A stretch of 30,264 nt of DNA from a virus: positions 1 through 30,264 of IMG/VR virus record IMGVR_UViG_3300032304_000470, one strand, 5' to 3'. The notes beneath the pieces are model-generated. The model was given only the letters and a program-made list of their open reading frames with translations, did not search any database and had not been told where the DNA came from. Of the stretch, positions 367 to 18,480 are shown one piece after another (position 1 is the first letter of the stretch; each line of letters begins with the position of its first letter). The position numbers and the translations under genes were made by a program.

Positions 367-410
367 GGGTCAATCTCCTTATTGTGATGAAGGCTAACCC
401 GGATGCCGTA

Positions 411-808: not shown

Positions 809-818
809 CCGAAACCTA

Positions 819-834: not shown

Positions 835-900
835 GACGGTCTGCCAGAGATGATCGCCTGGCACTGATGATGGCAGATCAACTGAGAAGGACCCTCAGAT

Positions 901-1362
901 ATGTACGACACGCAATTTCGCGCGCTCGCCGCCTCTAATGTTTTGATGTGGCTGGCGATTGGTTTCGGTGCTTTGCCTTGGTGGTTGAATGCTACCGAAC
1001 CTCTCGATTGGATTGTCGCCGCTGGAATGTCAGCCGCGCTGGTTTCAGTCAGCCTGATCCTCTCCGGATGCGTCACCCGGTTCGGTGAAGCAACGGAGCA
1101 CCAGCACTACCTCACCGCAGGCCTCACGATCGGCCTCGGCGCGGTGCTGGTCTTGATCGAGGCAGCCATGACCCACCAAGGTCTGGCCTGGCTCGATGCC
1201 CGCAAGGACCTCGGTCCTGATTGGGCGCTCTGGGCGGTAAGCTTCGGCCTCTCGTTCTTCAATGTCTTCTCGCTCTACACTTTCGCGCGGGACATGAAAC
1301 GGAAGCCGGTTGTGAACCCTGCCCGCCAGCTCGCCAGCATGCGCTGGAACAAGGTCGCCTAA
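901..1362 (+). CDS. Four-helix integral membrane protein, unknown function
   Basis: The 153-residue product has four likely membrane helices at about residues 12-29, 36-57, 70-92 and 107-128, followed by a basic C-terminal tail (RDMKRKPVVNPARQ) that should stay in the cytoplasm. A short charged loop with a His/Glu cluster (EATEHQHY) lies between helices 2 and 3. AGAAGGA precedes the ATG at a good distance. It is the last gene before a strong terminator and lies outside the late operon, on the opposite strand. Possible roles are superinfection exclusion, another lysogenic-conversion (moron) function, or a holin. No sequence family was recognised, and no endolysin is nearby to support the holin idea. 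Confidence 0.7.
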   Translation: MYDTQFRALAASNVLMWLAIGFGALPWWLNATEPLDWIVAAGMSAALVSVSLILSGCVTRFGEATEHQHYLTAGLTIGLGAVLVLIEAAMTHQGLAWLDARKDLGPDWALWAVSFGLSFFNVFSLYTFARDMKRKPVVNPARQLASMRWNKVA

Positions 1363-1366
1363 CGAG

Positions 1367-1401
1367 AAACCCCTCGCCCTAACACGGCGGGGGGTTTTTT
1401 T
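1367..1401 (+). terminator. Intrinsic terminator of the plus-strand unit
   Basis: The arm AAACCCCTCGCC (1367-1378), a seven-base loop, and GGCGGGGGGTTT form a GC-rich stem followed by seven Ts (1395-1401). This is a classic Rho-independent terminator for the membrane-protein gene. Its T-run overlaps the stop codon of the convergent gene at 1400-1402. On the minus strand the same stem is followed only by TTTCTCG, so it would end late transcription less efficiently. Confidence 0.9.
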
Positions 1402-1969
1402 ATGCCTGCAGCCATGTCTGAAATTTGGGATGCTCCAGCGCTTGCAGTCGCGCGAGTTGTTCCATCGTCATGGGGATATGTCCGACGAGCATGTTCCGCA
1501 GGGACGCAAACTCAGCCAGGACGCGCGCCTTCAGGGCAACATGGTCTTCGTCTGGGTAGGCTTCCATTAACGCCTCGGTCGGCGGATCGTTGGATAGCTC
1601 AAGGACGGGGGCAGCTTCCAGTTCTGCGATGCGTGCGCGAAGAGCGTCCAGTTCGGCATCCCGCGGATCGATCAGAGCAGGCGTCGGCTCCTCAAACACC
1701 GGCGCCGCAACAGCATCTACCAGCGTGCCAGACGTCACCGCTTCCCAATGCGCTTCGTATGGATCAACAAGGGCGACCACTGGCTCAACCGCCACCGGAT
1801 CGATCGGCGTTTTCGCAATCCTGGCAAGATCGCGCGCTAGGCTGATCCCGTCAGCCCTTGCGCCGCTGTGCGCCACGCCACGATAGACGCCTGCAATCGC
1901 AACCAGGTCAGTGTAGTACGTGACGCGGACGCTGTCCCAGTCCGACAGTATGGCTTCGATCTCAATCAT
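1400..1969 (-). CDS. Putative tail fibre assembly or associated protein
   Basis: This 189-residue protein is the last gene of the late operon. It starts within the stop codon of the tail fibre gene (ATGA overlap), so the two are translationally coupled. The C-terminal half has a short coiled-coil segment (AELDALRARIAELEAA, about 105-120) and ends in a helical region. The middle (about 55-100) is rich in Pro, Val and Ala and is probably extended. Small proteins encoded right after fibre genes are often chaperones or fibre-tip partners. No sequence motif proves this here, so the role rests on position alone. Confidence 0.6.
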   Translation of the reverse strand: MIEIEAILSDWDSVRVTYYTDLVAIAGVYRGVAHSGARADGISLARDLARIAKTPIDPVAVEPVVALVDPYEAHWEAVTSGTLVDAVAAPVFEEPTPALIDPRDAELDALRARIAELEAAPVLELSNDPPTEALMEAYPDEDHVALKARVLAEFASLRNMLVGHIPMTMEQLARLQALEHPKFQTWLQA

Positions 1970-3366
1970 GATGCCAGTATCCCCAAATTCTTCAGCGCCT
2001 TGACAACGTCACTGAGGCGATAGGCCGTTGCGCCGACGTTTCCGGTGAATGTGCTGGCATCCGTGACAGCAGTGCCGCCGCCGGCGGTGAAGCCGACCGT
2101 CTCTCCCGTTCCCGCCTGCTGCGCAACCGGCGTTGCGTTGAAGAGGCCCAACTTCTGGTTCGTCGCCGTGCCGATCTTGGTGCCGGTGCCTGTCGCAAGG
2201 ACAATGTTCCCGGTGTCTGAAATCGTCAGGCCCGCGAATGTCGGGCTGTCCCCCGTCCCCACGCCCAGCGTCGTGCGCTGCGCCGCGGCTGATGCATCGT
2301 CCATCAATGCCCGACCGGCGGCCGTAAAGTCCGCCTGGCTAAAGGTGTCCGTGCCCGTGCTGTACGCCAGTTTGTCCGCGCCCGTAGCGAGAGCCGCAAG
2401 AGCTGTCAGCGTGGCGTCCAGAGGCTGGCCGCCCAGAGCTGTCAGGGCTGCGCCTGCCGTCGTAGCGCCCGTGCCGCCATTGGCGATCGGGAGGGGCGAA
2501 TTGATCACCGCCAGCGATCCAAGACCAAGCGTCGTCCTGCCCGCCGTTGCATCCGCATCGTCTACTAGGGTCGCGCCGAACGCGCTGACACTTGCCGCAG
2601 GGAAAGCGGCGATCGGCACGACACTGGCGAGAACATTGACAACAAACGTCACCAGATCGCCCGACGCCAGGCCACTGTTGAACGTGACTGTCGTGGTGTT
2701 GGTCTCCACCCAATCCAGCCCCGCGCCCTGCTCGACGCGGATGCCGTTGACAAACGCTTCAATGGCTGAAGCGTTGACGACATACGGGATTGGCAAGGTA
2801 AAAGCCGTCTGGCTGGCTGTCGCCACAACCCGGTGGATGTAACGATAAGACGTTGATCCAACGATCGTCGTCGCATTGTAATTGACGATCTCCGTTGCGC
2901 CGCCGTTCCAGCCCAGCAGAGCGCCGCTCTGCGGAGTTGGCAATTGCGTGCTTGCAGTTGATGACACCGGGATCACCAGCGCCCGATCCAGCCGTTCGTC
3001 CAGCTGCTGGATCTGGATTGTCGCCCTGTCTAGGCTGTCGTTGATCACCTCGGGATAGAACCCGCCAAGGTTGGCGATCGCCGTGGGCTGGAGGTTGGCC
3101 ACGTTCGACGTGATCGTGATAGATTGCCCATTTGCAGGAGCAGTAAGCATTGTCACCGTACCGCCCGGGTTGGCGTTCTGGTTGGCGTTCAGGGTGACCG
3201 TGTAGTTAGTGGTCAGCGTCAACGTCGTCTCAACGCCGGTGGCGACCACCGTACGCGTCACGACTACCTGCGCCGTTGTGAATACTTTGAACGCAAAAGC
3301 AAAAGTGGTCGTTGAGCCATTGCCAGAATAAGGGCCAGCGCGCCGGACCTCTGAGCTTATCGACAT
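1966..3366 (-). CDS. T7 gp17-like tail fibre protein
   Basis: The 466-residue product begins like the virion-attachment domain of T7-type fibres: GPYSGNGSTTTFAFAFKVF near residues 11-29, then a beta-rich domain, then a helical linker SLDRATIQIQQLDERLDRAL at about 111-130. The rest is shaft-like, with the degenerate repeat DDADATAGRTTLGLG (about 269-283) and DDASAAAQRTTLGVG (about 356-370), and ANGGTGATTAGAALTALG at about 296-312. The C-terminus, FTGNVGATAYRLSDVVKALKNL, resembles the ends of many phage fibres. It trimerises on the tail and binds the host. The start is backed by CAGGAGAG upstream of ATG 3366. It follows the giant ejection protein by about 50 bases and overlaps the next gene by four. 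Confidence 0.85.
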   Translation of the reverse strand: MSISSEVRRAGPYSGNGSTTTFAFAFKVFTTAQVVVTRTVVATGVETTLTLTTNYTVTLNANQNANPGGTVTMLTAPANGQSITITSNVANLQPTAIANLGGFYPEVINDSLDRATIQIQQLDERLDRALVIPVSSTASTQLPTPQSGALLGWNGGATEIVNYNATTIVGSTSYRYIHRVVATASQTAFTLPIPYVVNASAIEAFVNGIRVEQGAGLDWVETNTTTVTFNSGLASGDLVTFVVNVLASVVPIAAFPAASVSAFGATLVDDADATAGRTTLGLGSLAVINSPLPIANGGTGATTAGAALTALGGQPLDATLTALAALATGADKLAYSTGTDTFSQADFTAAGRALMDDASAAAQRTTLGVGTGDSPTFAGLTISDTGNIVLATGTGTKIGTATNQKLGLFNATPVAQQAGTGETVGFTAGGGTAVTDASTFTGNVGATAYRLSDVVKALKNLGILAS

Positions 3367-3415: not shown

Positions 3416-6400
3416 TTACCGGGATGCCTGCGATGCGGAGCCAGTGACCAGGCCGCGGACATAGTCCTCCACGCTGGTCGGGGTGATATCGCCCTCGGCA
3501 ACGTCCACCGCGTAGCCGACGGGGCGTGACAGGGCTTGGAAGGGAATGCCGGTGGCAAGGGTCATGAGAGACAGCACGTCCTTAATAGCTTTTGATTTGT
3601 CGCCGTCTTCGGAGATAGCGTCGTACACGGTTTTACCAGAGATGGTACGCACGGCTCCTTCGATTGCGCTGATAGCGGGCGATCCCGCAATGCGGTCATC
3701 GTAAGGCACGCTCGTATAAGCGCCGCCGATGGCATTGATTGCCTGGCCGACGATCGGCGCAAAAGCGGTTGCGGTCTTGGCCTGCGTTCCAAAAAACCAC
3801 GACATCCATTCGTCAAGCCAGCCGTCGTCGTCCTCGTCCTCCGGAAATTGGCCGCGCAACCCGTCGGCGATCATCTGCGCCAGAAGCGCCGGGATCGCAA
3901 AACCCGCAATATAGACAAACATCAACCGGCCAGCGCCCTTCCTGAGCCCCAGTTCGCTGACCGCTGTCCGCATCTCGGTAGACAACAAATTGCCCCACAT
4001 GTTGAAGTAGCCGTACATGTGCACGAACGACCGGAGCATTGGCGTCCCGGTCTCGATCCGGCTGACATCCTCCGCAAACGTCGAGCCCTGCGTCTGGCGC
4101 ACGGCAGCATCGCCCTGCCTGGCCGCTTCTGTTTCCGTGGATCCGCCAGCAAGCGCCTGATCGTAAGCGCCCGCCCAGACGATCACGTCCATTACATTCT
4201 GGACGCCCTGCTGCATGAAATAGGTATGCCGCCCGAACCAGTCGCGCGCCTGTCCGTACTTGTCGTTCTTGTCGATGATCTTGTCGATCGCGCCATACAT
4301 GGACGCAAGCTGGTTGTCGCCGCGATCAGCCATCATCGGCGATGCCTGCCGGATAGCTTTGGTTATCGCCATGGGATTGCGCGTGTAGCGAATAAGACCA
4401 GACGCCAGATACTTGGGCTTGACCGTCAGGGCAGCCAGCGAAAAGCCGGTCACCTGCTGGGCAACGTTTACGACGTTTGCAAACATCAGGCCCATGCCAG
4501 AGCGCTGGCGGATGGCGCGGAAGAAGCCGTCCACCATCGGCGCGTACTGACCTTTGCTCGGCTCTTCGGTGATCTGTCGTGCAGCCCTTGTCAGCCACGG
4601 CAGCAGCATGTCGCTTTGCGCTGTCGGATCCACGCTTTCCAGCATGGCCGAGAAGCTCTTGTTGCGCAGGATCTTCAGCACGTCACGCACGGGTGATGCG
4701 AGGTGCGCAAACTTGAGGACCTTGTCGATGTGGCTCGACATGATCATGAGATCAAGCGCCAGCTCGCGATTGTACTCGACGCGCGACTTGGTGAAGCCTG
4801 ACGCCGGCGACGGGAACATCGTGCTGTCGTTTGCCTCGACGGCTTCCTGCTGCGCACGCAGCGCCGCGTCCTGCACGTTGTACGTGTCGTAAACCGCTGG
4901 CACGTAGCCGCCCTTGTATGTCCCGAACGGCGTCTGCACAGCTTCAGCCGTGATCTCCGCAAAGTAGCTGCCGAAAACTTTCTTGTGCGTGGCCTGTGCC
5001 AGAGGCTTGATCTCATCAAGCAGGTCCCAGACGCTTTGGGCAAAGTCAAAGTCGGCTTTGTTTATGACGCCTTCCTGCGACAGGCGGTTGATCAGGTTCT
5101 GCCATGCGTTGTCGATCAGGTTACCGTCCTGGTCCTCGGTGCCCCAGCCGCGGCCAAGCAGAAGCTTGCGGTAGTTGGAGCCGTTGCCGGTGTGCAGGAT
5201 TGCGTGCAGCAGTTCGGACTTGTTTTTGAACGTGTAGTTGATTTCGGGCGCGTTGATCTTGCCGCCACCCATGGTCGGCTCGATGGCGCGGAACAGTTCG
5301 CGGAAGCGCAGGATGTACGTGTTGCGATCGGTGCGGTAACGATCGGCAGCTTCGCTGACAGGACGCCAGATAAATCGTGTGAACGCGCCCACCTTGCCGC
5401 GATCGAACAGCCTCGCCCACGTCTCGACCCTGCGCATGCTGGCCTTGAGGCCGGCAAACTGGCGCAACCGTTGCTGCCATTCAGTGGGTGCCTCGGTTGA
5501 CGGACCCTTCGGAGCAGCGCCCTGCGTCTCGAGCTGACCATTCAGGTCCTGAACAATGTCTTCCAGGTCAAGCTGGCGGCCCTCGATGTCGATCTTCATC
5601 TCTTGGCGCGAGAGGTCCCAGAACTGCCGCACCGTGTCGCGTAGCCCCATGAACTCCGTGACGGTCAGCTGATCAAGCGTCTTGCCTGCCGTCACAGCTG
5701 CAATAATTGTGGGCTCCAGCGCCGAGTATAGCGCAGGGTCGTAAGCCTTGACGGCAACCATGTAGTCGATCGGCTGGTTCTTGACCGACCCGAACCCGTA
5801 TGCCGCCAGCACTGCCCGCGCTGCCTGCACCAGGTCATAGTTCCGCGTCTTCGCGACCGTCTCGCGCTTGGCCTTGTTGATGCGTGAGAACAGATCCAGC
5901 GCCTTGTCGCGCTCCTTCAGGACGCGCTGCGCTTCGCGGACGACTTCGAAGTTGAGAAGCTGGTCGCGCTTGGCTGACGCTGCGGCGGCAAAGTCGCCCG
6001 ATCGCATGGCTGCCTCTGCCTTGCGGCCAGCGGCACGCTCTGCAGCCAGATACTTGTTGAGATTGAGCTTGGACGCCAGTTGCCGGCCAACGATCTCCCT
6101 GGCGATCTCCTTGGCTGCAATCACCAGCGGTTTGGTTTGCTTGGAGGCCTTGATCAGGGCAGCATACTCAGCCTGCAGGACCTTCGCACGCATGGCGCTG
6201 TGGATCACATCGTCCGCAGCCTTGCTCATCTTCACTTCGTCGGTGAGATCGCCAAACCGCTCAAGCATCCTGCGATCGGTTTCGGTGTCGATCTCCGGTT
6301 CCGCAGGAACGGCGGACAGCAGGCTCGTAACCAGCGCATCGCCAGAGGGATAGCCAAGCATCTCTGCAGCCATGTCCGGATCGATGCCATCCTTCGCAAA

Positions 6401-9400
6401 CATGCCGTACTGGCCGTAGCCCAGGCGCTTCCAGTCAACGCCAGATATGTCAGGGTAGCGCGCCTTGAGCAGGTCGATGTTGAGCTTGTGAGCCCCGGTG
6501 ACGGGCTCGCCATTGGGCGCGATGCCACGCCGCAGGAAGCTGCGGGCGACGTTGACCGGGCGGGCCATCACCTCGGCGGCGACCTCTGCACGCACCAGCT
6601 TGCGCTTGTCGGCATTGTCGCGCTGCATGTCGCGCAGGACGCGCGCACGTGCGCCCGAGAGCCACTGCATGTCCCTCAACGATCGGGCGGTCAGGTCGTC
6701 CTGAGCATCGCTTGTCGCCTGCGCTGCGATCTGCTGGTAGGCTGTCCATTCCTGATCCGTCATCGCCTCTGGCTTTTCGCGGAACAGCGCGACCAGCTTG
6801 CGATTGTACTCTGCCGTCCTCACTGTTTCGTGGGCTGCATACATGCGATCCATCACGCCGCGAACCTCTGGCGTAAGCTCGACCTTGAGCGCAGTCAGGT
6901 TCTTGTACACGTCAAGCAGCCAGGTCTTGAAGCGATCGAACAGCGCTTGCAGCTCCGGTACGGGAGCCTTGCCCTCCATAAAATACTTTTCAGTGGCTTC
7001 GGCGTACTTCTCGTGTACCGGCGTGCGGCCGGCGAGGGGCGTGTTAGCCCACCATTGCAACACGTCACCTATGATCTGCACGTCTGCCTGACGCGCCATG
7101 TCGGTAAGCAGAATGCGCATATCATCGACGATCTTTTGCTCGTCCGGTGTGCGATCGGCTTCGGGTATCTTCTCGATCTGCAGCGCAGCGTTGTTGTAGA
7201 CCTCAAGGAAATGGTGACCCATCTCGTGCAGGTAGGACGACCAGTCTGCCTTGGGCAGCATGCGGATCGTGTTCAGGTTGGGGACGTACTCGCCGCGGCG
7301 CTCTTGGAATAGCGAAAAGCCCTCAACCAGGATTTCTTCGCGGATCGCGGGGGTGAGGTCGAGGATGTAGGCGGATGCATCATTATTAGAGACGGTGTAC
7401 CCCTCGCCCATGGCTTTGGCAGATTGCAGCGCCTGATCCCTTGAGTTGAAAGCATCGTAACGCCTCCCCAAAGGATCAAGCACGATATACTTAAGGTCGC
7501 CAAACTCATCATATACGACCTCGCCTCTCCGCACCTCCCCGCCGAACTGCTTCGCGATCTTCTCCAGCGCGCCCTTGACGTTGGTCTCATAGTGCAAGAC
7601 CGCTTCGTCATTGCCTTGAATAATTGCGCTCGTTTTGCCAGTCGGGAAGCTGATGGATTGAAAGCCTTGGCGGGCAGCGCGGTAGACCATCGCGCGCACG
7701 GCAACGTTCGTCCATTCGGAGGTGGTGAGAAGGGGGGCGTCGAGAGCTTTTAATCTGTTGCTGTCACGCTCATTGATGTAAGAAAACTGAGCGTAGTTGT
7801 AGGAATAGCCGTTCATGCCAGCCCAGTTCTGGCGAGCAAAACCGATCAGATCCGCGTCATTGAACTGGGCAACCCCTGCGTCCGTCGCTCCGGTTGATTT
7901 CATCCAAGCGGCGGCAGTTGCGCGATCCACGATGCCGCTGCGCTCAATGACAAGCTCTAGGCTGCGCTTCTGCGCCTCTTGCTCGACCTTCAGCTCACGC
8001 GCCTGCTGCGCCATGTCCGACTGCACCTGCCCCACGAAGATCGTGCGCTGGCCTTTGTCGTCTACACGCTCCTCGCCGTGTGCCGTGACCAGCGTGCCCT
8101 TGGCCTTGCCGCCTACGTGGCTGATGGGGGCTTGATAGTCAGCGCCCGGCACGCCCTTGGGCAAGCCGATGACGGCTTCGAACAGGGGAATGTCTTCGCC
8201 GGGAAGGCGGATGTCGCCGGGACCGCGGACAAGACCAGCGCTCTCTGTCGTGCGCGATCCTTCCCAGTAATCCCGCATCGTTTCTGCGCTGATCTTGCGC
8301 ATGACGAGGCTGCGGTTCTCGTTCAAGATGATCCGTGCCGCCTTGCCGAGAAGGTCGCCAATGACGCCCGTGGCAACCAGCTCGCGCTTGCCGGGAATGT
8401 TCAGGCCACGGTACAGGTTGTACGTGCGCCTCGGCATATCGTAGCGCTTGACGGGGTCGTCAGAGACTTCCTGTTTGTTGGCGCGGACAAACAGGCCCGT
8501 GTGAAACTCGTCTGCGCCATCAAGATCAGACGCAATGATTCGGCCTTCTTCAAAGCCCATAGACACTTCGCCAACACCCAGCATGTTGCCCAGCGTGTCG
8601 TCGTCGATCTCGTCCAGTATCTGAGCCTTGGTCGGGGCTTTGACGTTCGGATCAAACCGCGTGAAAATCTCCACCAGCGACAGCCGCTTCGCAGCGATGT
8701 GCTCAAGCACAGCTTCCTTGAGCGCAGCGCCCTTCATCTTCGCGTCGCCAAACATGGCGTCGAGGCCAAGGTACTCCATCTCCGTCCTGCGCGGAGGAAC
8801 GCCGCCCCTACCCTTCGCAATTGCGTTGCGCGCAGCGTTCCAGCCGAGTTGCCAGATGCCATCGGGGACGCGCAGCGCAGCTTCCTGCACCGCGCTGTAG
8901 AAGCCTAGGGCGTCGAGGTTGCGTTTGGTTTGGGCTAGGACATCCTGCCCGAGGTTTTCTGTATCTCCAACGGCAGCTGCGCTTCCAATTCCGCCCCCCA
9001 TTCCTTCGGCAGGCCTTCTGGATAGGCGATCGCGAGGTACTTCTCCCTCGTAAGTGGAATACCCAGACGCCGCATCATCGCCAGTATCGGGTCGCGTGTT
9101 GACCCAGGCGGGAGGCTCAATTCCTCCGGCGAGGGCTGAGATCCGGTTGCGGGCCTCTTCTGCGGTGATCGCGCCATCGCGGTGTTCCTTCCAGATTGCG
9201 TCGACTTTAGCCGCATTGGTTTTGGTTTTGAAGCGCGGCTTGAACAATGTTCGCACCGCTTCCCAGGTTATTGACTGCATCTGGCGCGGCAAGATGTTGC
9301 GTTGCTGCGCGGCACGGCGGTAGGCCTCCGCATGTATGCCGTAGGTGCCGATGGTCCCGGTGGCCGCGCTGGTGGGCGGGCCGTTCAGGTTCTGATCGAC

Positions 9401-12400
9401 TTCTGGTGACGCTGCGGAATGTGGGCGGATGTGCGCGGCAGCAACAGCGTGGGTGTCAATCGTGACATCGCCGTGCGGAGCATTGGGCGCAAGGATGTTG
9501 TTGTAGAAATTGCGGACTTTGTGTTGCGCACCCAAGGCGGCGGACGCGGCGTTGCGGTCGGGATTGCGGATCATCGAAACCGCTTTGGCGATTTCCGTTA
9601 GCGAACCCCACTGCACGCGCGATCGCGAGACGCCGTCCTGGTTGACGACATAATCGCCAAACCTTCCCTCCGGCGTGAGAATGCGAAAACCGGGTTCGTT
9701 GTAGGTCTGATCGTAAATACGGATCCAGGCGGCCACGAAACCGTCGGCGTCTTCGCCGAACTCAGCCTCAAGATCGGCGATTGTCTTGCCATCAATGGCG
9801 TTGCGGATTTCTTCGTAGCCCTGAACCTCGCCCTTCTTGTTGGCGACAGGTTCGCCCGTTTTGGCGTCGATCTTTATGCGCGGGAAAATGCGATCTGCGG
9901 TCGCCTGCATTTCCGGCGACCAGGGCGTCTCGCGCTGTGTCGTATAAATGTCGAGCACACGTTCAGCCATCGAGACGTTCTGGAACCAGTCCTTCTGCGG
10001 CGACAACGCCGCGATGACGCCGGCAATCACGAGATCGGGCAGGTCGTAGCGCGCCATCCATGCGTCGGTAATTGCCCGCGCGCCGTTGTACCATTCGTCG
10101 GCACGATCGCGTGTCTCGGCGTCGTAGCTGTCGTGCAGCCAGAGCAGGTTCTCAACGACGTGCTCGATGTACCGCTCAAGCGTCTGCTCGGTTGTCTCGC
10201 CTTCGACCGCCGGAAAATTGACGTACTCGCGCACCGTGGAAGCGATCTTGTCGGCGAATTTAGGATCCGCCAGGGTTGAGTCGAGCCCGACAATCAGGTT
10301 GTCGGTAAGCGCATTTTCTTGCGATTTGACGGACCAGGGCTGGCGCGTCGATACGCGCATCGGGCTGTCGCCGTCCGGCTGAACAGACGATTGCTGTTTG
10401 GGTATTTCATCCTGCGCCAGCGTGCCAGGAGCCGGTTGCGCCGGAACCCGCCCGGCGTTTTCGGGTATCTGGATGTACTCAACACCGTTTGTCGTTGTGA
10501 AGCTAACACCGTCATAGCCTTGGTCGCGGGCGGCCGTGACAAGATCCTGCATTGTTGCTGCGGGCGTGAGGCCAAGCTGCTCCTTGGCCTGCATCCAGTT
10601 TTGTGTTTCCAGCAGATTGGTGAAGGTCACTTGTTCTTCAGCGATTGTCCCGCCTTCGCCGGCATAGTTCTCTGCCACAGCACGATCCGGCGAGAGGAAC
10701 CTGCCAACATCTGTTGAAGCACCAACATCCCTGCCAGTCGCCACGCCCCGGTAAAGGGTGACTGTGCGTTGTGGCTGCTGGGGCGCGCCCTGCGCCTGCT
10801 CCATGACGGGCTGGCCCACGCCCTCGACAGGCCCCGCCTGGCGCTCGATCTTCAGAGGACCGCGCTGGTACCTTTCGTAAGCCTCGCGTGGGCTGATGCC
10901 CAGACGCCGGGCCAGCGAGACGTAGGTTTGCGTGGTGATTGTCGTGTAGGCGCGGCTGACTTCGGGGGTGAAGACCTCGCCGCCTTCGATCGAGCGGAAC
11001 TGCTGCAGCACCTCGTCCTGTATGGATTGCGCTTCTGCTGCAAAGGTCTCGTCCGTCAAAGCCTCCTGCACCAGGCGGTCGGCTTCTGCGATGACGTCCG
11101 CTCTGCCGTTGGAGGAAAATGCCTCCTGCTCCATGCGGTTCAGAAGAAAAGGGTTGGTCTTGATCACCTGCGTCAGCGGTGCTGCCAGGTCCGTGCCGGC
11201 GACGGTGGCAATAAATTTGCCGATGGGCATTTCAAGAAGGCTATTTGTCGTTGACGCCGTCTGGATCTGGTCAGCCACGCCAAGCTGCTGTGCAAGCTGC
11301 CGGGGCTCAAGGCCCGCCGTCGTGGCAACAGAGGCAAGGTCCTCAGCAGACAGGTAAATGGTCGAGACGGGACCGTCGGCTGCAGCCTCGTCCACGAAGC
11401 GCTCGAGCTCGCCGCGATCGCGAGCGACAAGCTTGGTTTCGGCCGTGGCGGCAATAGCAGCCTCAATGCGGTTGATCGTGCCTTCTGATGTGCTGAGTGC
11501 AATGTCAGCCTTGCGTAGTTCGCGGTTTTCTATCATCACCTGCAGAGGAGCAGCAGCTCCGACAATCGCGCCGCCAGCCACGCCGCCCGCAGCGGCGGAT
11601 TCACCAATCCGCGCCAAAGCTTCCTGAGTTGTAACAGGCGCGAACTCTCCCGGCGTTACGATCTTCAATGTTTCGCCTGTAACGATTTGCGAAAGCGCCT
11701 GAAAACCTTCTGTTACGGCTTCAGTAATCGCACCAGTGGCAACCTTCTTGCCGATGCGAAGCATGGTGTCGCGACCTGCCTGCGTCTGCAGCAGCTTCTT
11801 TACAACGTCCTTGCCGCCCATCAGCTTGTCGATGCCGGGTATGCTTTTGAGCTGGGCGCGTTCGCCGGCGACCTCCAGGCCAACGCTCAAAACCGCATTG
11901 ACGTAAGCTGCACCGCGCGCAGCGTCCTCATCTATCAGCTTACCAGTATCATCGCGGAAATTTATGTATTCGTCAAAACTGTCGCCTGCGATCTGGTCAA
12001 AGTTGTAAGAAATTTGCCCCGCTGCAACGCCAGCGACTGGCATGCCGAAAAGCGCACCAACAAAACCATAGGTCGCCATCTCTGGCACACCAAGCGCCAA
12101 GTCAGTGACGGCACTGGCGATGGCATTGGTAGTCCACGTCACGCCATTTTCAGTTGATTGTTGCTGTTGCTGGAGAATGGAGTTGCGGATCTTGAGGCTC
12201 TCGTATTCCATGATCTCGGTCGGCAGCAGAGGCTTGCCGTCAAGTCTCTTTTTACTCAGCTTTGAAATCTTTGCCTGATTGGCCGATATTTCGCCGCCAA
12301 CAAATGCTTCGCGCAAAACGCGCTCAACTCCTGACAGGCTCTTCAGATCATCGGCGGCCAGGCTAACGAAGTCAGGGCGCGAAAAAGCCTTAACGAGCGC

Positions 12401-12988
12401 TGGCGACATGGTGAGTGTCTGTTGCGCTTGTCGCTTTGTCAGTTGGTTGGTTGCTTCAGTAACGCCAATTGCCCGCACCATGGCCGGCGGCATTTGCAGC
12501 TTTCCCGCAAGATCGCGGATCCTGGCTTCCTCATCCGGATTTGCGCGAATAGCCTGATCGATCGCCAGATTGCGCTGCACATCATTGAGTATCGCCGCTT
12601 GCGAAGCTGGCGTTGCCTTGGGCAGGAAGCCGGGCTGCAAGGCGAGTTGAGCAATAGTGTCAGCATATTCAGATTTTGTGCGCGCCTCTGGCGCTTTATC
12701 GACATCCGTCAAGCGTTGAGGAAAACCAAAGTTCTCCATCTTTGCATAAAAAGGTTCTTCCGTCTCAGGCACGGGAAACATGCCGAAAGATGACCCGGCG
12801 GCGACGGCCTCTGCTTCGCTTTGTGAAATACCAAGATTTTTTGCAATCTTGCCAGCGCGGTCATCTTCCGGACGATCAATGGCGGCAAGAAATTTGGCGC
12901 GTTCATCTTCCCCCTTGGCCAGCCTTTCTTCGCGCGCAAGGCGTTCTGCGCGTTCCTGACGTTTTTTCAGTGTTTCAGGAACAAGCAT
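3416..12988 (-). CDS. Giant polyvalent internal virion (ejection) protein
   Basis: The gene encodes 3190 residues in one open frame, starting at ATG 12988 immediately after the stop of the preceding gene (TAGATG), so translation is probably coupled. Visible parts in order: a charged helical N-terminus; Gly/Ala-rich hydrophobic stretches near 295-325 and 460-485; an ADP-ribosyltransferase-like domain at about 741-840 (LYRG with R747, FLSP with S766, VEY with E837); a helical domain at about 890-1250 with AALSPQKDWFQN and VTIDTHAVAAA; polyvalent-protein modules at about 1355-1890 (FYSAVQEAAL, FVGQVQSD, LTPAIREEILVEGFSLFQ); a zincin HEMGH at 1921-1925 with a candidate third ligand near E1997; long helical regions; and a C-terminal large-polyvalent-protein-like domain at about 2500-3190 with a hydrophobic segment at 3019-3045. 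The position matches T7 gp16 (1318 residues), which is ejected into the cell. Domain names rest on motif recognition only. Confidence 0.85.
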   Translation of the reverse strand: MLVPETLKKRQERAERLAREERLAKGEDERAKFLAAIDRPEDDRAGKIAKNLGISQSEAEAVAAGSSFGMFPVPETEEPFYAKMENFGFPQRLTDVDKAPEARTKSEYADTIAQLALQPGFLPKATPASQAAILNDVQRNLAIDQAIRANPDEEARIRDLAGKLQMPPAMVRAIGVTEATNQLTKRQAQQTLTMSPALVKAFSRPDFVSLAADDLKSLSGVERVLREAFVGGEISANQAKISKLSKKRLDGKPLLPTEIMEYESLKIRNSILQQQQQSTENGVTWTTNAIASAVTDLALGVPEMATYGFVGALFGMPVAGVAAGQISYNFDQIAGDSFDEYINFRDDTGKLIDEDAARGAAYVNAVLSVGLEVAGERAQLKSIPGIDKLMGGKDVVKKLLQTQAGRDTMLRIGKKVATGAITEAVTEGFQALSQIVTGETLKIVTPGEFAPVTTQEALARIGESAAAGGVAGGAIVGAAAPLQVMIENRELRKADIALSTSEGTINRIEAAIAATAETKLVARDRGELERFVDEAAADGPVSTIYLSAEDLASVATTAGLEPRQLAQQLGVADQIQTASTTNSLLEMPIGKFIATVAGTDLAAPLTQVIKTNPFLLNRMEQEAFSSNGRADVIAEADRLVQEALTDETFAAEAQSIQDEVLQQFRSIEGGEVFTPEVSRAYTTITTQTYVSLARRLGISPREAYERYQRGPLKIERQAGPVEGVGQPVMEQAQGAPQQPQRTVTLYRGVATGRDVGASTDVGRFLSPDRAVAENYAGEGGTIAEEQVTFTNLLETQNWMQAKEQLGLTPAATMQDLVTAARDQGYDGVSFTTTNGVEYIQIPENAGRVPAQPAPGTLAQDEIPKQQSSVQPDGDSPMRVSTRQPWSVKSQENALTDNLIVGLDSTLADPKFADKIASTVREYVNFPAVEGETTEQTLERYIEHVVENLLWLHDSYDAETRDRADEWYNGARAITDAWMARYDLPDLVIAGVIAALSPQKDWFQNVSMAERVLDIYTTQRETPWSPEMQATADRIFPRIKIDAKTGEPVANKKGEVQGYEEIRNAIDGKTIADLEAEFGEDADGFVAAWIRIYDQTYNEPGFRILTPEGRFGDYVVNQDGVSRSRVQWGSLTEIAKAVSMIRNPDRNAASAALGAQHKVRNFYNNILAPNAPHGDVTIDTHAVAAAHIRPHSAASPEVDQNLNGPPTSAATGTIGTYGIHAEAYRRAAQQRNILPRQMQSITWEAVRTLFKPRFKTKTNAAKVDAIWKEHRDGAITAEEARNRISALAGGIEPPAWVNTRPDTGDDAASGYSTYEGEVPRDRLSRRPAEGMGGGIGSAAAVGDTENLGQDVLAQTKRNLDALGFYSAVQEAALRVPDGIWQLGWNAARNAIAKGRGGVPPRRTEMEYLGLDAMFGDAKMKGAALKEAVLEHIAAKRLSLVEIFTRFDPNVKAPTKAQILDEIDDDTLGNMLGVGEVSMGFEEGRIIASDLDGADEFHTGLFVRANKQEVSDDPVKRYDMPRRTYNLYRGLNIPGKRELVATGVIGDLLGKAARIILNENRSLVMRKISAETMRDYWEGSRTTESAGLVRGPGDIRLPGEDIPLFEAVIGLPKGVPGADYQAPISHVGGKAKGTLVTAHGEERVDDKGQRTIFVGQVQSDMAQQARELKVEQEAQKRSLELVIERSGIVDRATAAAWMKSTGATDAGVAQFNDADLIGFARQNWAGMNGYSYNYAQFSYINERDSNRLKALDAPLLTTSEWTNVAVRAMVYRAARQGFQSISFPTGKTSAIIQGNDEAVLHYETNVKGALEKIAKQFGGEVRRGEVVYDEFGDLKYIVLDPLGRRYDAFNSRDQALQSAKAMGEGYTVSNNDASAYILDLTPAIREEILVEGFSLFQERRGEYVPNLNTIRMLPKADWSSYLHEMGHHFLEVYNNAALQIEKIPEADRTPDEQKIVDDMRILLTDMARQADVQIIGDVLQWWANTPLAGRTPVHEKYAEATEKYFMEGKAPVPELQALFDRFKTWLLDVYKNLTALKVELTPEVRGVMDRMYAAHETVRTAEYNRKLVALFREKPEAMTDQEWTAYQQIAAQATSDAQDDLTARSLRDMQWLSGARARVLRDMQRDNADKRKLVRAEVAAEVMARPVNVARSFLRRGIAPNGEPVTGAHKLNIDLLKARYPDISGVDWKRLGYGQYGMFAKDGIDPDMAAEMLGYPSGDALVTSLLSAVPAEPEIDTETDRRMLERFGDLTDEVKMSKAADDVIHSAMRAKVLQAEYAALIKASKQTKPLVIAAKEIAREIVGRQLASKLNLNKYLAAERAAGRKAEAAMRSGDFAAAASAKRDQLLNFEVVREAQRVLKERDKALDLFSRINKAKRETVAKTRNYDLVQAARAVLAAYGFGSVKNQPIDYMVAVKAYDPALYSALEPTIIAAVTAGKTLDQLTVTEFMGLRDTVRQFWDLSRQEMKIDIEGRQLDLEDIVQDLNGQLETQGAAPKGPSTEAPTEWQQRLRQFAGLKASMRRVETWARLFDRGKVGAFTRFIWRPVSEAADRYRTDRNTYILRFRELFRAIEPTMGGGKINAPEINYTFKNKSELLHAILHTGNGSNYRKLLLGRGWGTEDQDGNLIDNAWQNLINRLSQEGVINKADFDFAQSVWDLLDEIKPLAQATHKKVFGSYFAEITAEAVQTPFGTYKGGYVPAVYDTYNVQDAALRAQQEAVEANDSTMFPSPASGFTKSRVEYNRELALDLMIMSSHIDKVLKFAHLASPVRDVLKILRNKSFSAMLESVDPTAQSDMLLPWLTRAARQITEEPSKGQYAPMVDGFFRAIRQRSGMGLMFANVVNVAQQVTGFSLAALTVKPKYLASGLIRYTRNPMAITKAIRQASPMMADRGDNQLASMYGAIDKIIDKNDKYGQARDWFGRHTYFMQQGVQNVMDVIVWAGAYDQALAGGSTETEAARQGDAAVRQTQGSTFAEDVSRIETGTPMLRSFVHMYGYFNMWGNLLSTEMRTAVSELGLRKGAGRLMFVYIAGFAIPALLAQMIADGLRGQFPEDEDDDGWLDEWMSWFFGTQAKTATAFAPIVGQAINAIGGAYTSVPYDDRIAGSPAISAIEGAVRTISGKTVYDAISEDGDKSKAIKDVLSLMTLATGIPFQALSRPVGYAVDVAEGDITPTSVEDYVRGLVTGSASQASR

Positions 12989-14755
12989 CTACTGTTGGTT
13001 CCATGTGCCAGTGTAAACAGCCACGACGCGAGCAGAGTATTCAGCGCTGCTCATTGTGCCGGGAGTAACACCCAAGAGACGCAGGTCCTCGACAATACGA
13101 TCATATTTGGCTTTGGGAATATTTACGATGCCAGCGGGAGACTGAATGGATACGGCTTGCGCAGATGGTCCGGGCTCAATTGCCTGTGCTGACATTGGTG
13201 CTGGCGTCGAACCAGGCTCAATCATCGTAGACCACGAAGGCATTGCTTTCGCCCATTGCTTGAACACAGCATTGCGCATTTCTTCGGGGCTCAGATAGCC
13301 ATTGGGGCGATTGAGACGATCGCGTTCGATCGTCAGGGCTGTGTTCATTTGGTCGCGGAATATGTACTTGGTGCTTGGATCGAGTTTGCTTTGCTGCGCT
13401 TTGTCAATGCCGATTGCATCAAGCAGAAAAGAAAACTCCTGCTCGTCTGCCTCTGCGCGCTTTTGAGCTTTCGGATCCTTCCTGTACTCATCGCGCAACT
13501 TGGAAAGGCTGGCAAAGTTGGCCTCGCCTACCGATGATCGCAGCATCCTGAAATTGCCGTCTGGCATATCCGCCAGCACCCTTGGATCGCCGTAGGCAAG
13601 ATCGTAATAACGCCTTGCATACTCTTCGTTCCTGCGCTCGTCGGCCTTGCCCTTAAAATGAGACTTGAGAGCTTCCTGATCTTTGGGCCTGAGAGATTGA
13701 AACGCAGAACTGCGCATCATCTCAGCCCATGACTTCTGACCCAGGCGAAACGCGGTGTCGTAATTGTCAGCGACCTGATTGTTGTGCTGCTGTTGAAAGC
13801 GAGCCACGCGATAGTCGAGTTCTCCGCGAGCGGCATCGCGGCGGGCGGGATCATCGCCGGCAAGCTTTGTTATCTCTGCCTGCATGTCAAACACGGGTAT
13901 GCTGTCGCCTTCCCATTTGAATTTATCCCAGACAGCATCGACATCAATCAACGCCTGATTGGCCGAAACGCTTTTCTCCAGGCCCTTCTCAACGGTGGCT
14001 GCATCAGCAGCCATGAAGTCGTCGCGGTTCCGGTCGAAGTAGGCCTTCGCCTGCATCACCTGTCCGCTGTTGACCATGCTCTCGATGATTACCGCGTGAC
14101 TTTTGCCGAGGTCTTCCTTGAGCCTCAGCTCGATCTGGTCCTTGTCGAAGCCTGAATTGTCGTACTTGGTGCGCAGGGCGTCCTTGGCCCGCACCAGGTT
14201 CCACTTCTCGGCAAACGTGTTGCCGGGGTTTGCGGCAATCAGGTTCATGGACGTGACGACAGTGTCGTCCAGTATGCGTGCCTGATAAATCTCGTTCTGT
14301 TCTGCCATGTGGGCGACAGCTTCGCCGCGAAAGCGCACCGACATGTCGTCTGCAAGCAGAGAAAACTGGTCGCGCACGGCTGGCGCTTGCAGGCTGCCGG
14401 CGATCGTGCTGATGCCGCGCTTCAGTTCAGCGTCAAAGTAATCGTCAAGCGCAAGACCGTTTATGCCGTTGGCTGCGTCCACCCCCTGCAGCTTCTTCAT
14501 GTTCGCGCGCAGATCCTGCGCAAGACGCTCGGCCTGGTTGTAGGCGTCGTTCAGCCGGGCCTTGTTGACCTTGTCCTGTTCTTTGAGGGCGTAGTCGCCG
14601 ATCGCCGTGCCAATGGCCGTAGCCGCACGTCCGGCTTCCTGCATCTGCCTGCCAGGCAGGCCCGCCATATCCGGAGACAGGACGGGCTGCGCGCGTCCTT
14701 GACGGACGGTGGGCAGGACATCTCCAAAGCCTTCAGGTTGCGGAACGCGGGGCAT
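12989..14755 (-). CDS. Internal virion protein, T7 gp15-like position
   Basis: The product is 588 residues from ATG 14755, almost wholly alpha-helical, soluble and charged. Its first ATG overlaps the stop of the gp14-like gene by one base (TAATG), and AAGGGA lies upstream. The frame stays open about 84 codons further back, but that stretch is Arg/Gly-rich out-of-frame shadow of the neighbour and is excluded. Residues around 230-250 (MVNSGQVMQAKAYFDRNRDDF) show the helical-hairpin style common in core proteins of podoviruses. Such proteins form the internal core and, after ejection, part of the channel across the periplasm. The assignment is mainly by synteny: it lies between the gp14-like gene and the giant protein. 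T7 gp15 is longer (747 residues). Confidence 0.7.
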   Translation of the reverse strand: MPRVPQPEGFGDVLPTVRQGRAQPVLSPDMAGLPGRQMQEAGRAATAIGTAIGDYALKEQDKVNKARLNDAYNQAERLAQDLRANMKKLQGVDAANGINGLALDDYFDAELKRGISTIAGSLQAPAVRDQFSLLADDMSVRFRGEAVAHMAEQNEIYQARILDDTVVTSMNLIAANPGNTFAEKWNLVRAKDALRTKYDNSGFDKDQIELRLKEDLGKSHAVIIESMVNSGQVMQAKAYFDRNRDDFMAADAATVEKGLEKSVSANQALIDVDAVWDKFKWEGDSIPVFDMQAEITKLAGDDPARRDAARGELDYRVARFQQQHNNQVADNYDTAFRLGQKSWAEMMRSSAFQSLRPKDQEALKSHFKGKADERRNEEYARRYYDLAYGDPRVLADMPDGNFRMLRSSVGEANFASLSKLRDEYRKDPKAQKRAEADEQEFSFLLDAIGIDKAQQSKLDPSTKYIFRDQMNTALTIERDRLNRPNGYLSPEEMRNAVFKQWAKAMPSWSTMIEPGSTPAPMSAQAIEPGPSAQAVSIQSPAGIVNIPKAKYDRIVEDLRLLGVTPGTMSSAEYSARVVAVYTGTWNQQ

Positions 14756-15354
14756 TAGAATGGTCCCTTTGGAACGGTGCCGCGAAGGGCCTGGCCAATC
14801 TTTACATTCGCGCCTGTAACGCCCGTGCCTTTCGCCCCACTCCCCAGCGCCCCCGATGCCTTGAACGTGGCGTAGCTTCCCGCCACCTGCGCAGCGCTGG
14901 TCAGCAGCGTGCTGAGGGCGGCCCCCGCAGGGCTGATGCCGCGAGCTGTCGCGCGCTCGACGGCGGCCGAACCGCGAAGGTTTGTCCCCTCCATGCGGTA
15001 ACCCCATGCCTCGCGCAGGGCATTAGCCTTGATCTGGTTGACGTCCATTTCGGATATGTAGTCTGTCGTCGATTGCAGGGCGATCGCGCTTTCTGATCCA
15101 AGCTCGATGCCGCTGGCGGCGATGGTTGCCCGCTGCCGGCTCTTGAGCTGGGCCGCACCCATCATGGCGCCCTGCTGCTGGCGCTCGCCGCGCAGGAGCA
15201 CGTCGCGGGCCTGGCCCTCTGCGATGCGGGCATTGATTTCGTTCATGCGTGCGCGCAGCTTCAGGGCGGTCTTCTCGCCCTCGGCTTGGTAGTACGCTCC
15301 GACCGTGCTGCCGATCCCGCCTGCAACCTGTGCTGTCAGCGATGATATAGCCAT
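14755..15354 (-). CDS. Internal virion protein, T7 gp14-like
   Basis: The 199-residue product is close to the size of T7 gp14 (196). It has a Gly/Ala-rich N-terminus (QVAGGIGSTVGAYYQAEG), a long charged helix with RARMNEINARIAEGQARDVL, the segment QRATIAASGIELGSES, which is characteristic of many podovirus internal proteins, and an Ala/Gly/Ser-rich C-terminus with a hydrophobic stretch around residues 143-165. Proteins of this family are ejected first and insert in the outer membrane. The start ATG 15354 is preferred over an in-frame ATG 39 bases upstream because it sits right after the nozzle gene stop, with GGCGGG ahead and a typical N-terminus. Confidence 0.8.
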   Translation of the reverse strand: MAISSLTAQVAGGIGSTVGAYYQAEGEKTALKLRARMNEINARIAEGQARDVLLRGERQQQGAMMGAAQLKSRQRATIAASGIELGSESAIALQSTTDYISEMDVNQIKANALREAWGYRMEGTNLRGSAAVERATARGISPAGAALSTLLTSAAQVAGSYATFKASGALGSGAKGTGVTGANVKIGQALRGTVPKGPF

Positions 15355-15355
15355 C

Positions 15356-17794
15356 TTACCCGCCGAACTGGACTTCGATCGTCGCGCTGACAATGGTCAA
15401 CGGGACAGGATCAGATTGACGTACTACTATTTGCCCGTCCCGTGTCCACGACGGGCTGATCATTATGTCAATTTCTTCCGTCTTGAGGTTGGGCGGCTTG
15501 CCGTAAACCTCGCTTGTGCGGATCTTGGCTTCCGTAAGGGTGTTCTCGTCTGGCCCCACGAAGATACCGCTTGATCGATAGACGCGCAGGTAGACCTGGT
15601 TGACGTTCTTGGCGCGGCCTTGGCCGTAGCCGTCCACGCCCTCAAGCGACATTGGAAGCGTCTGCAGGTCGCTGACGATCGGCAGGCCGACATGGACGAG
15701 GCTGGCAGCCTTTTCCAGCGTGATGGCCCCGCCGGTGACTGTCTTGGGCTCCATCACCGCCCCATCGGCGAGGATGTAGACCTCCTTGCCTTCAAGGTGC
15801 GACAGGCCGCTGATGGTGGTGGCCGCGGCGCCGGAATAGGTCACGCCGCAGTCAACGAAGAACCCGTCCTTCAGCTCGGCAAAGTACCGGCTCGCCAGCC
15901 GCTCAACGTAGCGGACGGTGGATCCGCCGATCGTCCGCGAGATGACGGCGTACAGGATGTCGTCGTTGCCCTCTCCGACCACGGCTATGCTCTCGATCAG
16001 GCCGTCGGTGTCGTGGGTATGCCAGGCGTAGACTTGCTGCTCTGGCACGTATGTCAGGCCCAGCAGGCTGCCATCGGACGACACCGCCCAGACGATCGGG
16101 ATCGGACCCTTGGCATAATCCATGTCCCTGATGGTCTTAAAGTCAAACAAATGGCCAGCGCGCAGGGACAGATCGATCGAGACGTAGCTCTGCACGTCGA
16201 AGTCAAAGCCCACAGCACGAACGTGGCCACCGCGATTGGCCGGATAGATTGCAGTGTTATTCACCGTCACGGGCTGGACGTTGCTGATACCGATATAGGA
16301 TTGCGGCCTGGCTGTAATCGTCGCAGGCGTGAGGATGTCGCCGGCAGACGATATCCGCCACTCTGCGTGATCCGTTAGCAGCAGCAGATCGCCAATCACG
16401 ACCGCGTGCCGGATCGCATTGGCCTCGCGCGATGCGATCTTGATGCTGATGCCGTCGTCGTCCCGCACCGGGATAGAGTAATCCAGGTTGCTTTCTGTTC
16501 CCGTTTTGGTCATCCAGACCGTCTGTGGCAAGTTTGACGTGCCCGCGAACACCCGCCGCTGCTCGTAATAGCACACCGCAGAGGGGTAATTTCCCGCGCT
16601 TGCAAAGGGGTTCTGGTTGAGGGGCGGCGTCCTTGAGACGTCCGGTGCGATGTTGTCATCCACCAGGCTGGTCCCGGTTGACTGGCCGATAAATCCATAC
16701 AGGCCGCCGGACTGGCGGTAGACATTGCGCCGTGCGCTTGTCGAAAAGTTGATTGTGTTGAGGGCGCCTGTGTCGAACAGCTGGTTGCTGGCCGTCACTG
16801 CGGCCGAGGCGACACTTTCGTCCAGCTGGTCGTCAGAAATCCGCGTGGCGACGTAGCTGTAGGTCTGCGCCAGAGATGGCGATGCCCCCAGAGTAGCTCC
16901 CACGCTCGAGATCGTCGGCGCTGCCAGCGTCGATCCGAAGGTGATCACTGACAGCGTCCACTTTGTCGCGCTCAATCGCCTCAACTCGCGCGGCGCGTAG
17001 TTGGGGTGAACGATTGTCATGATATCGGCAGACTGCACATAGCGCAGGTCGGCCAGGTCGCCTTCAGCATAGGGCGAGGGTATCTGGTAAGGCACCGGCA
17101 TTTCGTACCAGAAGCCCGACGGGGAGGTGTTCGCCGTGCCCGTGTAGCCAATGAAGACCGTCGTCTCGATCGGCTCAAGGCCGATCCGGCCTAGTTCAGG
17201 GTCGTAGATCTCTGTCCAATTGTAGCTTGTCTGGCTGATGTAGACCAGTTGCCCGATGACTGCTGAGGTCGGCAGCTCCGTACCCACATTCGTGTATCCG
17301 GCGGGCGGGGTCGCCTGCGCGGGCACCGTCTCCACCCACGTCGCCGTGATCACCGGCGCGGATCCGTACTGGTTTGCGCTTGTTTCCGGGTCGTTGTTGG
17401 TGCTGTTGACAACGCAATACCACGTTTTGCCGCCCTTTGTTGCGAGGTCGCCGGGGACGTAGGAGGTAACGTTGCTCCACGCCGTCAGGCCCGTCGTGGG
17501 CGTGAGGAGCGTCCCGCCAAAGGTGTGGAAGCGGAAGTAAGCCTCGCCAGCCTCGATCACGGTTGTTTGCGTAGCGGAGAACCTGAAAGGCAGGACGCGC
17601 GTGAACTTGCTGTTGTACCTGACCCCGCGCACGAACTGAAAGCCGGGGCGATTGACGACGGGACCCTGCGGCAGCGGGATGAAATTACGGCACACCGCCA
17701 GGCCGGTGTTGGCCTTGATGTCGTCGATGCGGCCAAGCATTTCCGGCGTAATCACGCCGCCGTTAAATGACCTGACGTAAACCTTGCTGGCCAT
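15356..17794 (-). CDS. Tail nozzle protein (T7 gp12-like, tail tubular protein B)
   Basis: The 812-residue product starts MASKVYVRSFNGGVITPEML, the standard opening of podovirus tail nozzle proteins (SFNGGVxSP/TEMxGR), followed by CRNFIPLPQGPVVNRPGFQFV, another family hallmark. The rest is beta-rich, as expected for the propeller and platform of the nozzle. T7 gp12 is 794 residues, a close match. It forms a hexamer at the tip of the short tail, below the adaptor ring, and gates DNA exit. The gene starts two bases after the adaptor gene stop and ends directly before the gp14-like gene, the same order as in T7-like phages. Confidence 0.92.
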   Translation of the reverse strand: MASKVYVRSFNGGVITPEMLGRIDDIKANTGLAVCRNFIPLPQGPVVNRPGFQFVRGVRYNSKFTRVLPFRFSATQTTVIEAGEAYFRFHTFGGTLLTPTTGLTAWSNVTSYVPGDLATKGGKTWYCVVNSTNNDPETSANQYGSAPVITATWVETVPAQATPPAGYTNVGTELPTSAVIGQLVYISQTSYNWTEIYDPELGRIGLEPIETTVFIGYTGTANTSPSGFWYEMPVPYQIPSPYAEGDLADLRYVQSADIMTIVHPNYAPRELRRLSATKWTLSVITFGSTLAAPTISSVGATLGASPSLAQTYSYVATRISDDQLDESVASAAVTASNQLFDTGALNTINFSTSARRNVYRQSGGLYGFIGQSTGTSLVDDNIAPDVSRTPPLNQNPFASAGNYPSAVCYYEQRRVFAGTSNLPQTVWMTKTGTESNLDYSIPVRDDDGISIKIASREANAIRHAVVIGDLLLLTDHAEWRISSAGDILTPATITARPQSYIGISNVQPVTVNNTAIYPANRGGHVRAVGFDFDVQSYVSIDLSLRAGHLFDFKTIRDMDYAKGPIPIVWAVSSDGSLLGLTYVPEQQVYAWHTHDTDGLIESIAVVGEGNDDILYAVISRTIGGSTVRYVERLASRYFAELKDGFFVDCGVTYSGAAATTISGLSHLEGKEVYILADGAVMEPKTVTGGAITLEKAASLVHVGLPIVSDLQTLPMSLEGVDGYGQGRAKNVNQVYLRVYRSSGIFVGPDENTLTEAKIRTSEVYGKPPNLKTEEIDIMISPSWTRDGQIVVRQSDPVPLTIVSATIEVQFGG

Positions 17795-17796
17795 CG

Positions 17797-18480
17797 CTAT
17801 TGTCCGTCAGGGTACCAGGGGTCGTCCTCGTAAGGCCACAGGCTGCCCCGGTTAGCAATCCAGCTGGGGCTATGGCGGGTGTCGCGCCTGACGGACGCGC
17901 GGTTGCGCTGGTTGGCATCCTCGACCCGTGCCCGCTCAACGTAGCTGAGAGCCATTTTGAGAGCCTCGCCAGACACCCTCATGCCTTCCGTGCCCTTGAT
18001 GACCGGGCCTGCCAGATAGCTTGCCAGCAGCCAGGCAAGCCCCTCCGTAAAGATCGGCGGGAAGCGGGCAGCGTCGGTCACATATGCCACGTAGCGGACG
18101 ACTGCGTCCTCAGGGTTGGCGTAGATGACCCGCGTGCCGCTGCTGTCTGCACTTAGCTCAAACTCATATTCGGCCTTGTTCTCGTCGTACATCGCGTTGG
18201 GGTCGTAGACCCCAAGGATCTTCATGAAGTCCCCCGGCGCCGTGTAGCTGTACTGCCACTTGGCCGGCGGGACGACGGTGGCAGAGATATCCGCCAGCAC
18301 CGCACGCTTTACCGCAAAGCTCCACGGGTGCATGTTCAGCAGAACGTCGCGCGCCATCGGGTAGAACCGTGCGCAGTGTTCAGCCTGCGCCGAACCTTCG
18401 GGCGGGTCGATCGACGTGACGTTCGCCCTGTCTCCGATGTGAGCCAGCGCTAGGTTGCAGATATCTATGACGCTGGCCAT
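17797..18480 (-). CDS. Head-to-tail adaptor (T7 gp11-like, tail tubular protein A)
   Basis: The 227-residue product begins MASVIDICNLALAHIGD, followed by AEHCARFYPMARDVLLNMHPWSFA. The pattern CNxALxxIG...Y...R...L..HPWxFA is diagnostic for T7 gp11-type adaptors, which form the dodecameric ring joining portal to nozzle. It is slightly longer than T7 gp11 (196 residues), with a basic C-terminal extension from about residue 187. ATG 18480 follows a strong AGGAGG. The neighbours (nozzle downstream) fit perfectly. Confidence 0.92.
   Translation of the reverse strand: MASVIDICNLALAHIGDRANVTSIDPPEGSAQAEHCARFYPMARDVLLNMHPWSFAVKRAVLADISATVVPPAKWQYSYTAPGDFMKILGVYDPNAMYDENKAEYEFELSADSSGTRVIYANPEDAVVRYVAYVTDAARFPPIFTEGLAWLLASYLAGPVIKGTEGMRVSGEALKMALSYVERARVEDANQRNRASVRRDTRHSPSWIANRGSLWPYEDDPWYPDGQ

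Follow-up and report, generated by a model that had tools for sequence, protein, structure and literature searches.

The window analysed here as a whole is the 30,264-base viral contig of IMG/VR record IMGVR_UViG_3300032304_000470, which is probably a fragment. An earlier note on this DNA had described an open frame at 3416-12988 without giving its strand. The frame is real and lies on the minus strand, running from an ATG at 12988 to a stop at 3416 and encoding a protein of 3190 amino acids (here called the giant). Across the same positions the plus strand has abundant stops, and because relatives of the giant exist at full length, the frame is not a chance one. The minus-strand order in the head part is terminase, portal, protease-like protein (in the scaffold position), GP7 major capsid and Bbp16-like cement protein, followed in the tail part by the gp11-like, gp12-like, gp14-like and gp15-like genes, the giant and a tail fibre (Table 1). 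Bordetella phage BPP-1 has its genes bbp21 to bbp9 in this same order.

Table 1. Genes of the tail and ejection region of the window and the parts of the giant protein (residues are those of the giant)
Feature	Residues	Positions	Strand	Basis
gp11-like tail tubular protein		17797..18480	-	PHROG 394, E 6.5e-45
gp12-like tail nozzle protein		15356..17794	-	PHROG 376, E 8e-201
gp14-like internal virion protein		14755..15354 (ORF opens 15393)	-	PHROG 418 'internal virion protein', E 7e-23; synteny with bbp12
gp15-like ejection gene, 588 aa		12989..14755	-	PHROG 10475, E 2.5e-30; synteny with bbp11
Giant Bbp10-family polyvalent protein	1-3190	3416..12988	-	ORF; homology to BPP-1 Bbp10 and other phage giants
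LPD22 domain	139-227	12308..12574	-	Pfam PF18834, E 2.7e-11, above cut-off
N-block, left wall of the cargo bay	519-707	10868..11434	-	profile present in all 125 giants used
Cargo bay	708-1892	7313..10867	-	length-variable, 19-1520 aa in relatives
ART-PolyVal-like domain	741-845	10454..10768	-	hhalign to sibling bays; strand/helix order of the model; below Pfam threshold
DUF7178 module, predicted HhH-glycosylase fold	865-1300	9089..10396	-	Pfam PF23802, E 2.4e-23; model; VIA; conservation
'QSD' module	1346-1895	7304..8953	-	copies in relatives; no Pfam family
Zincin metallopeptidase domain, HEMGH at 1921-1925	1898-2030	6899..7297	-	HExxH in relatives; CLCA_X family
All-helical C-block, hydrophobic segment 3018-3042	2031-3190	3419..6898	-	PHROG 9880; model; hydropathy
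Tail fibre, bbp9 position		1966..3366	-	PHROG 1640, E 1.3e-25

The BPP-1-like head genes to which the earlier note had drawn attention were recovered, namely the GP7 major capsid protein (E 3e-130), the Head-tail_con portal (PF12236, 2e-185), the Bbp16 cement protein and Bbp19. The giant is indeed the third gene, after the gp14-like (PHROG 418) and gp15-like (PHROG 10475) genes, with gp11- and gp12-like tail genes also present. The true start of the gp15-like gene is likely at 14755, overlapping the stop of the preceding gene, which gives 588 aa. Its product had no Pfam match and a transglycosylase domain was absent from its matches, unlike BPP-1 bbp11, whose annotation includes one. Neither in this protein (Pfam) nor in the giant (Pfam, NCBIfam) was a peptidoglycan hydrolase recognised. 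Elsewhere in the window, a 124-aa lipoprotein-like ORF at 23496-23870 (minus strand), flanked by a pectate-lyase-type tail spike and a fibre-like ORF, carries a zincin-type motif, HELGHINGWDAEH, and has no Pfam family; a GNAT-like acetyltransferase ORF at 27511-27960 (minus strand) adjoins the portal, as bbp24 does in BPP-1.

A translated search of 50,697 phage records found 45 that match the giant, with identity never above 60%. Giants were aligned from BPP-1 (Bbp10), Caulobacter phage Jess A, Cobetia phage Carin1, Limnohabitans phage DC33, Acinetobacter phage Ab9, Pseudomonas phage AF and two Manatee Spring podoviruses, and their similarity to the window's protein is confined to an N-part (mainly about residues 519-720) and a C-part (about 1880-3190), the latter reaching an E value of about 1e-119 with BPP-1 Bbp10. 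PHROG 9880 matches residues 1895-3185 with 1131 bits, while Pfam recognised only LPD22 (139-227) and DUF7178 on the whole giant. In the nearest relative, L094, identity is 54% in the N-part and 64% in the last ~1340 residues. The similarity of both the N-block and the C-block, together with the shared operon order, places the giant in the Bbp10 family. Of 61 long relatives searched with the profiles of the two blocks, 58 carried both, and after loci from bacterial genomes were added the set comprised 125 giants with both blocks, including that of the window. Among the 117 relatives whose flanking sequence was long enough, 105 have a gp14-like gene upstream. Judged by their record titles, almost all of the bacterial-genome loci come from Proteobacteria, a distribution fitting for a trans-envelope injector, and since many of them sit in long chromosomal contigs they are probably prophages. 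Three further observations were made among the relatives. The C-block is present and the N-block absent in L067 and L076, and thus other left ends occur; phage DC33 (L004, PQ492659.1) is filed under Inoviridae yet bears this podovirus operon; and a second, smaller insertion place is found just after the zincin, at about window residues 1975-2196, in L144, L146, L147, L152, L155, L171 and L173.

Between the two blocks lies the region that we call the cargo bay. Among the 58 relatives its length ranged from 35 to 1457 aa, with a coefficient of variation of 0.55 against 0.08 and 0.05 for the lengths of the N-side and C-side, and among the 125 giants it ranged from 19 to 1520 aa, with a coefficient of variation of 0.80 against 0.10 and 0.11 for the flanks. 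Of 47 non-redundant bays that were defined, 45 were scanned with Pfam, which identified ART-PolyVal in 24, DUF7178 in 10, GNAT in 4, PBECR5 in 3, and PBECR1 and LPD23 in 2 each, in addition to DUF3990, PARP and others. For instance, the bay of BPP-1 is a PBECR1 RNase domain and that of JessA is an ART-PolyVal. The order of modules on the common scaffold also varies, being ART-DUF7178 in L168, GNAT-DUF7178-ART in L014 and DUF7178-PBECR5 in L015. The bay of the window holds three modules, an ART-PolyVal-like domain, DUF7178 and the 'QSD' module. The bay of L094 ends in the same QSD module but has a different ART and lacks DUF7178, and therefore cargo is swapped between close relatives. These data show that a constant N-block and a constant zincin/helical C-block enclose a bay of exchangeable content and length. 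Short bays (19-200 aa) are frequent in giants from bacterial assemblies (L204, L205, L212, L246, L252 and others) and giants from IMG/VR are often long-bayed, a contrast that is only a lead as the two sources are sampled differently.

Some relatives, in BPP-1 and in Caulobacter phages, are annotated as 'lysis protein' or 'crystallin beta/gamma motif'. These annotations would suit a giant that is a structural or lysis protein, its middle being a passive spacer made up of dead domains, and the near absence of a bay in some relatives (19-40 aa) would suit a spacer as well. This explanation is very unlikely in our judgement: bays carry many unrelated enzyme families, and the searches with Pfam and NCBIfam found no muralytic domain in the giant, so that its identity as a lysis protein was rejected. 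The crystallin product name was set aside as a propagated motif label.

The first module of the bay, residues 741-845, is probably an ADP-ribosyltransferase as judged from its sequence. Aligned by hhalign with six ART-PolyVal domains from sibling bays, it gave a P value of 1.9e-6, compared with 0.3-0.7 for eight shuffled decoys. The Pfam profile alone stays under threshold for this stretch, and we therefore name it ART-PolyVal-like and not a member of the family. Arg747 stands in place of the His of the sibling domains, and the His-Tyr-Asp/Glu active site is accordingly incomplete; the site is perhaps of another type (an Arg-Ser-Glu variant) or dead. The altered first catalytic residue is also what a passive spacer would allow. 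Used by itself to scan IMG/VR, the ART-like stretch gave no relatives. ARTs were reported in 3% of podoviruses in 2022 (PMC9503650), and the finding of one in 24 of 45 sampled bays suggests that they are commoner in this group of podoviruses.

The second module, DUF7178, could be modelled with AlphaFold2 at a pLDDT mostly above 90. The top six rows of VIA-align with this model were QNG1/DUF2419 (Z 9.4 and 8.4), archaeal AGOG and relatives (7.3, 5.6 and 4.6; 1xg7, the Pyrococcus relative of AGOG, was among the matches) and human OGG1 (6.8), after which the next row fell to Z 3.2. QNG1, AGOG and OGG1 are all enzymes of the helix-hairpin-helix (HhH) glycosylase fold. Within the module, a helix and a short hairpin (LGAQ) are followed by a helix that starts with HKVRNF and bears Lys1157 (LGxxHKVRNF), and Asp1178 (VTIDTH) begins the next helix 21 residues further on. 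The sequence GVGRKTA...VDTH is the signature of endonuclease III-type glycosylases, which the Lys/Asp motif of DUF7178 recalls. By motif only, the module has the catalytic Asp and, at the HhH, the Lys that goes with lyase activity. Both Lys1157 and Asp1178 are invariant in all aligned rows of DUF7178, which argues against the dead domains of a passive spacer. Foldseek alone against the PDB gave no significant match for the model, and the fold call consequently rests on VIA together with the motif; a profile search of DUF7178 against PDB sequences also gave no match, nor did Pfam HhH-GPD match the giant. With the HhH-GPD superfamily (AGOG, OGG1, QNG1/DUF2419) the module thus shares the fold and the Lys/Asp motif, but it has no sequence match to any PDB chain and sits in a protein in an ejection place. 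On the model, it very likely has the HhH glycosylase fold, and for nucleic-acid base excision as its activity we would put the chances at about even.

DUF7178 is found well beyond giants of this kind. A scan of IMG/VR with the bay gave 367 encoding stretches, from which 80 loci were kept, and all 80 match the DUF7178 part of the bay. In 27 of these the protein has 1000 aa or more and the place of the module in it varies, and in the other 53 the protein is smaller; in L067, L070, L071 and L076 it starts near residue 70. A gp14-like gene is located 1742-2080 bp upstream of the smaller proteins, on the same strand, in 35 of the 39 cases with enough upstream sequence, and each of the five gaps examined is taken up by a single open frame of about 580-610 aa, which matches the window's gp15-like protein in size. 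This spacing and the single frame in the gap indicate that the smaller DUF7178 proteins also hold the third place of the ejection operon. We propose, tentatively and with slightly less than even confidence, that DUF7178 may be an injected base- or nucleoside-excising glycosylase encoded in the third ejection gene of many podoviruses, either within the bay of a giant or as the C-terminal part of a protein of ~750 aa. The enzyme would act within minutes of the start of infection, either on incoming nucleic acid or on that of the host.

The third module was named 'QSD'; it has no Pfam family, and a profile search against PDB sequences gave no match. Its copy in L094 is 57% identical, and distant copies occur in at least seven other loci, namely L131, L145 (twice), L165, L162, L130, L127 and L091, among which QSD..Q is invariant.

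At the start of the C-block, each of the nine giants compared has an HExxH motif at the same position. A 2013 study used residues 700-1000 of Bbp10 as a seed of its CLCA_X zincin family (PMC3650047). The HEMGH of the window's giant is accompanied by a match to the lethal-factor zincin (VIA Z 4.6, model residues 1-138), and the domain is assigned as a zincin on both grounds. The model of residues 1893-3092 had a mean pLDDT of 80 and is helical beyond the zincin. Its best VIA match was the phiM1 pre-infection ejectosome (8vb2, Z 6.7 over 223 residues), with the cyanophage A4 pre-ejectosome (3.7) and N4 gp50 (3.2) lower; for a helical model a Z of 6.7 is within the range of chance, and such values may mean a common helical arrangement only. 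Foldseek alone gave no significant match for this model in the PDB, and the profile of the C-block matched no PDB sequence. In hhalign, the C-block profile aligned with T7 gp16 at E 0.04 over 59 columns, which does not support homology, gave no homology to the phiM1 core protein, and aligned weakly with N4 gp50 over the zincin only (E 0.006-0.025). The C-block resembles many predicted viral structures named polyvalent or ART-PolyVal-like, including those from contigs labelled Siphoviridae and Myoviridae. It is therefore not tied to short tails, and seems to be a scaffold in general use among phage polyvalent proteins.

These results allow the giant to be compared with known systems. It shares with BPP-1 Bbp10 (PHROG 9880; CLCA_X) homologous ends, gene order and the position of HExxH, but the bay of Bbp10 has 183 aa with one PBECR1 RNase, whereas that of the window has ~1190 aa with the ART-like domain, DUF7178 and QSD. 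The polyvalent proteins of Iyer et al. (2017) likewise have LPD22, ART and zincin domains, many domains per chain and adjoining virion genes, and the giant combines several domains of that inventory (LPD22, ART-like, HExxH zincin) in one chain in a virion-gene setting; the DUF7178 glycosylase fold, however, is undescribed there, the word 'glycosylase' being absent (PMC5512222). N4 gp50, the last of three ejection genes, also has an N-domain, cargo, a zincin and a helical C-domain of ~1100 aa (PMC12633501), but its cargo is an RNA polymerase, and sequence kinship to the giant was undetected beyond the weak zincin alignment. With T7 gp16 and the tetrameric ejection protein of phiM1 the giant has in common the third place in the ejection operon and, for phiM1, the weak structural match of the C-block (Z 6.7); T7 gp16 differs in its annotated endolysin domain, of which none was found in the giant, and has no sequence homology to the C-block.

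The earlier note had placed the giant in the slot of T7 gp16, and the third-gene position holds. By hhalign, the C-block showed no homology to gp16 itself. The giant is, as claimed, more than twice the length of T7 gp16 (2.4 times its 1318 aa). The note had also seen enzymatic-looking modules and called the protein polyvalent, and LPD22 above the Pfam cut-off, the ART-PolyVal-like domain, the zincin and DUF7178 bear this out; that the modules might be unrelated to polyvalent-protein domains, which the note had named as counting against it, was examined, and they were found to be related. Its comparison with P1 DarB holds in idea only, because a DarB-type methylase/helicase module was undetected. 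A polyvalent virion-borne effector in the place of gp16 is well supported by position and content, whereas its packaging, injection and enzyme activity are inferred. Proteins of this kind are already known; the novelty seems to lie in the bay as measured here, in the fold of DUF7178 and in the way this family recurs within the third ejection gene.

On the whole, we consider it likely that the giant is a Bbp10-family polyvalent protein in the place of gp16, whose constant ends would deliver, whose zincin may free and whose bay cargo would act. By analogy with N4 gp50 and its partners gp51 and gp52, the constant blocks would carry the giant into the head and then out via the tail, together with the gp14- and gp15-like partners. 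N4 gp50 is ejected, and a beads-on-a-string form was proposed for it (PMC12633501). The zincin at the boundary between bay and C-block would release the cargo by cleavage, either inside the host or earlier, and the enzymes set free could at an early stage of infection modify nucleic acid and host macromolecules. Release by a zincin was proposed by Iyer et al. for polyvalent proteins generally (PMC5512222). We found no published mass spectrometry of Bbp10 in the literature, and in the BPP-1 head paper Bbp16 and Bbp17 are the only two identified. Alternatively, the giant might be packaged but cleaved by its zincin during assembly, as for P1 DdrB, which has a C-terminal zincin and is reported to be cleaved before packaging (PMC5512222); only some pieces would then enter the virion, and the bay would act in the producing cell or the head. 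The universal HExxH of the nine giants compared favours such cleavage, but N4 gp50, which has the same plan, is packaged whole (PMC5512222; PMC12633501), and bay contents such as ART, RNase, GNAT and the glycosylase fold belong to conflict effectors and change fast, unlike assembly factors. We therefore regard cleavage during assembly as unlikely and prefer delivery of the cargo to the host.

With this explanation, a 'giant hypothetical protein' becomes a testable plan of constant delivery ends, a boundary protease and an exchangeable bay. The bay is a catalogue of candidate injected effectors, and some of the phages have laboratory hosts (Caulobacter, Limnohabitans, Cobetia). DUF7178, which Pfam lists as of 'unknown function' and which is found in hundreds of viral contigs, now has a predicted fold and a candidate active site, and conserved gene order places the family in the ejection operon.
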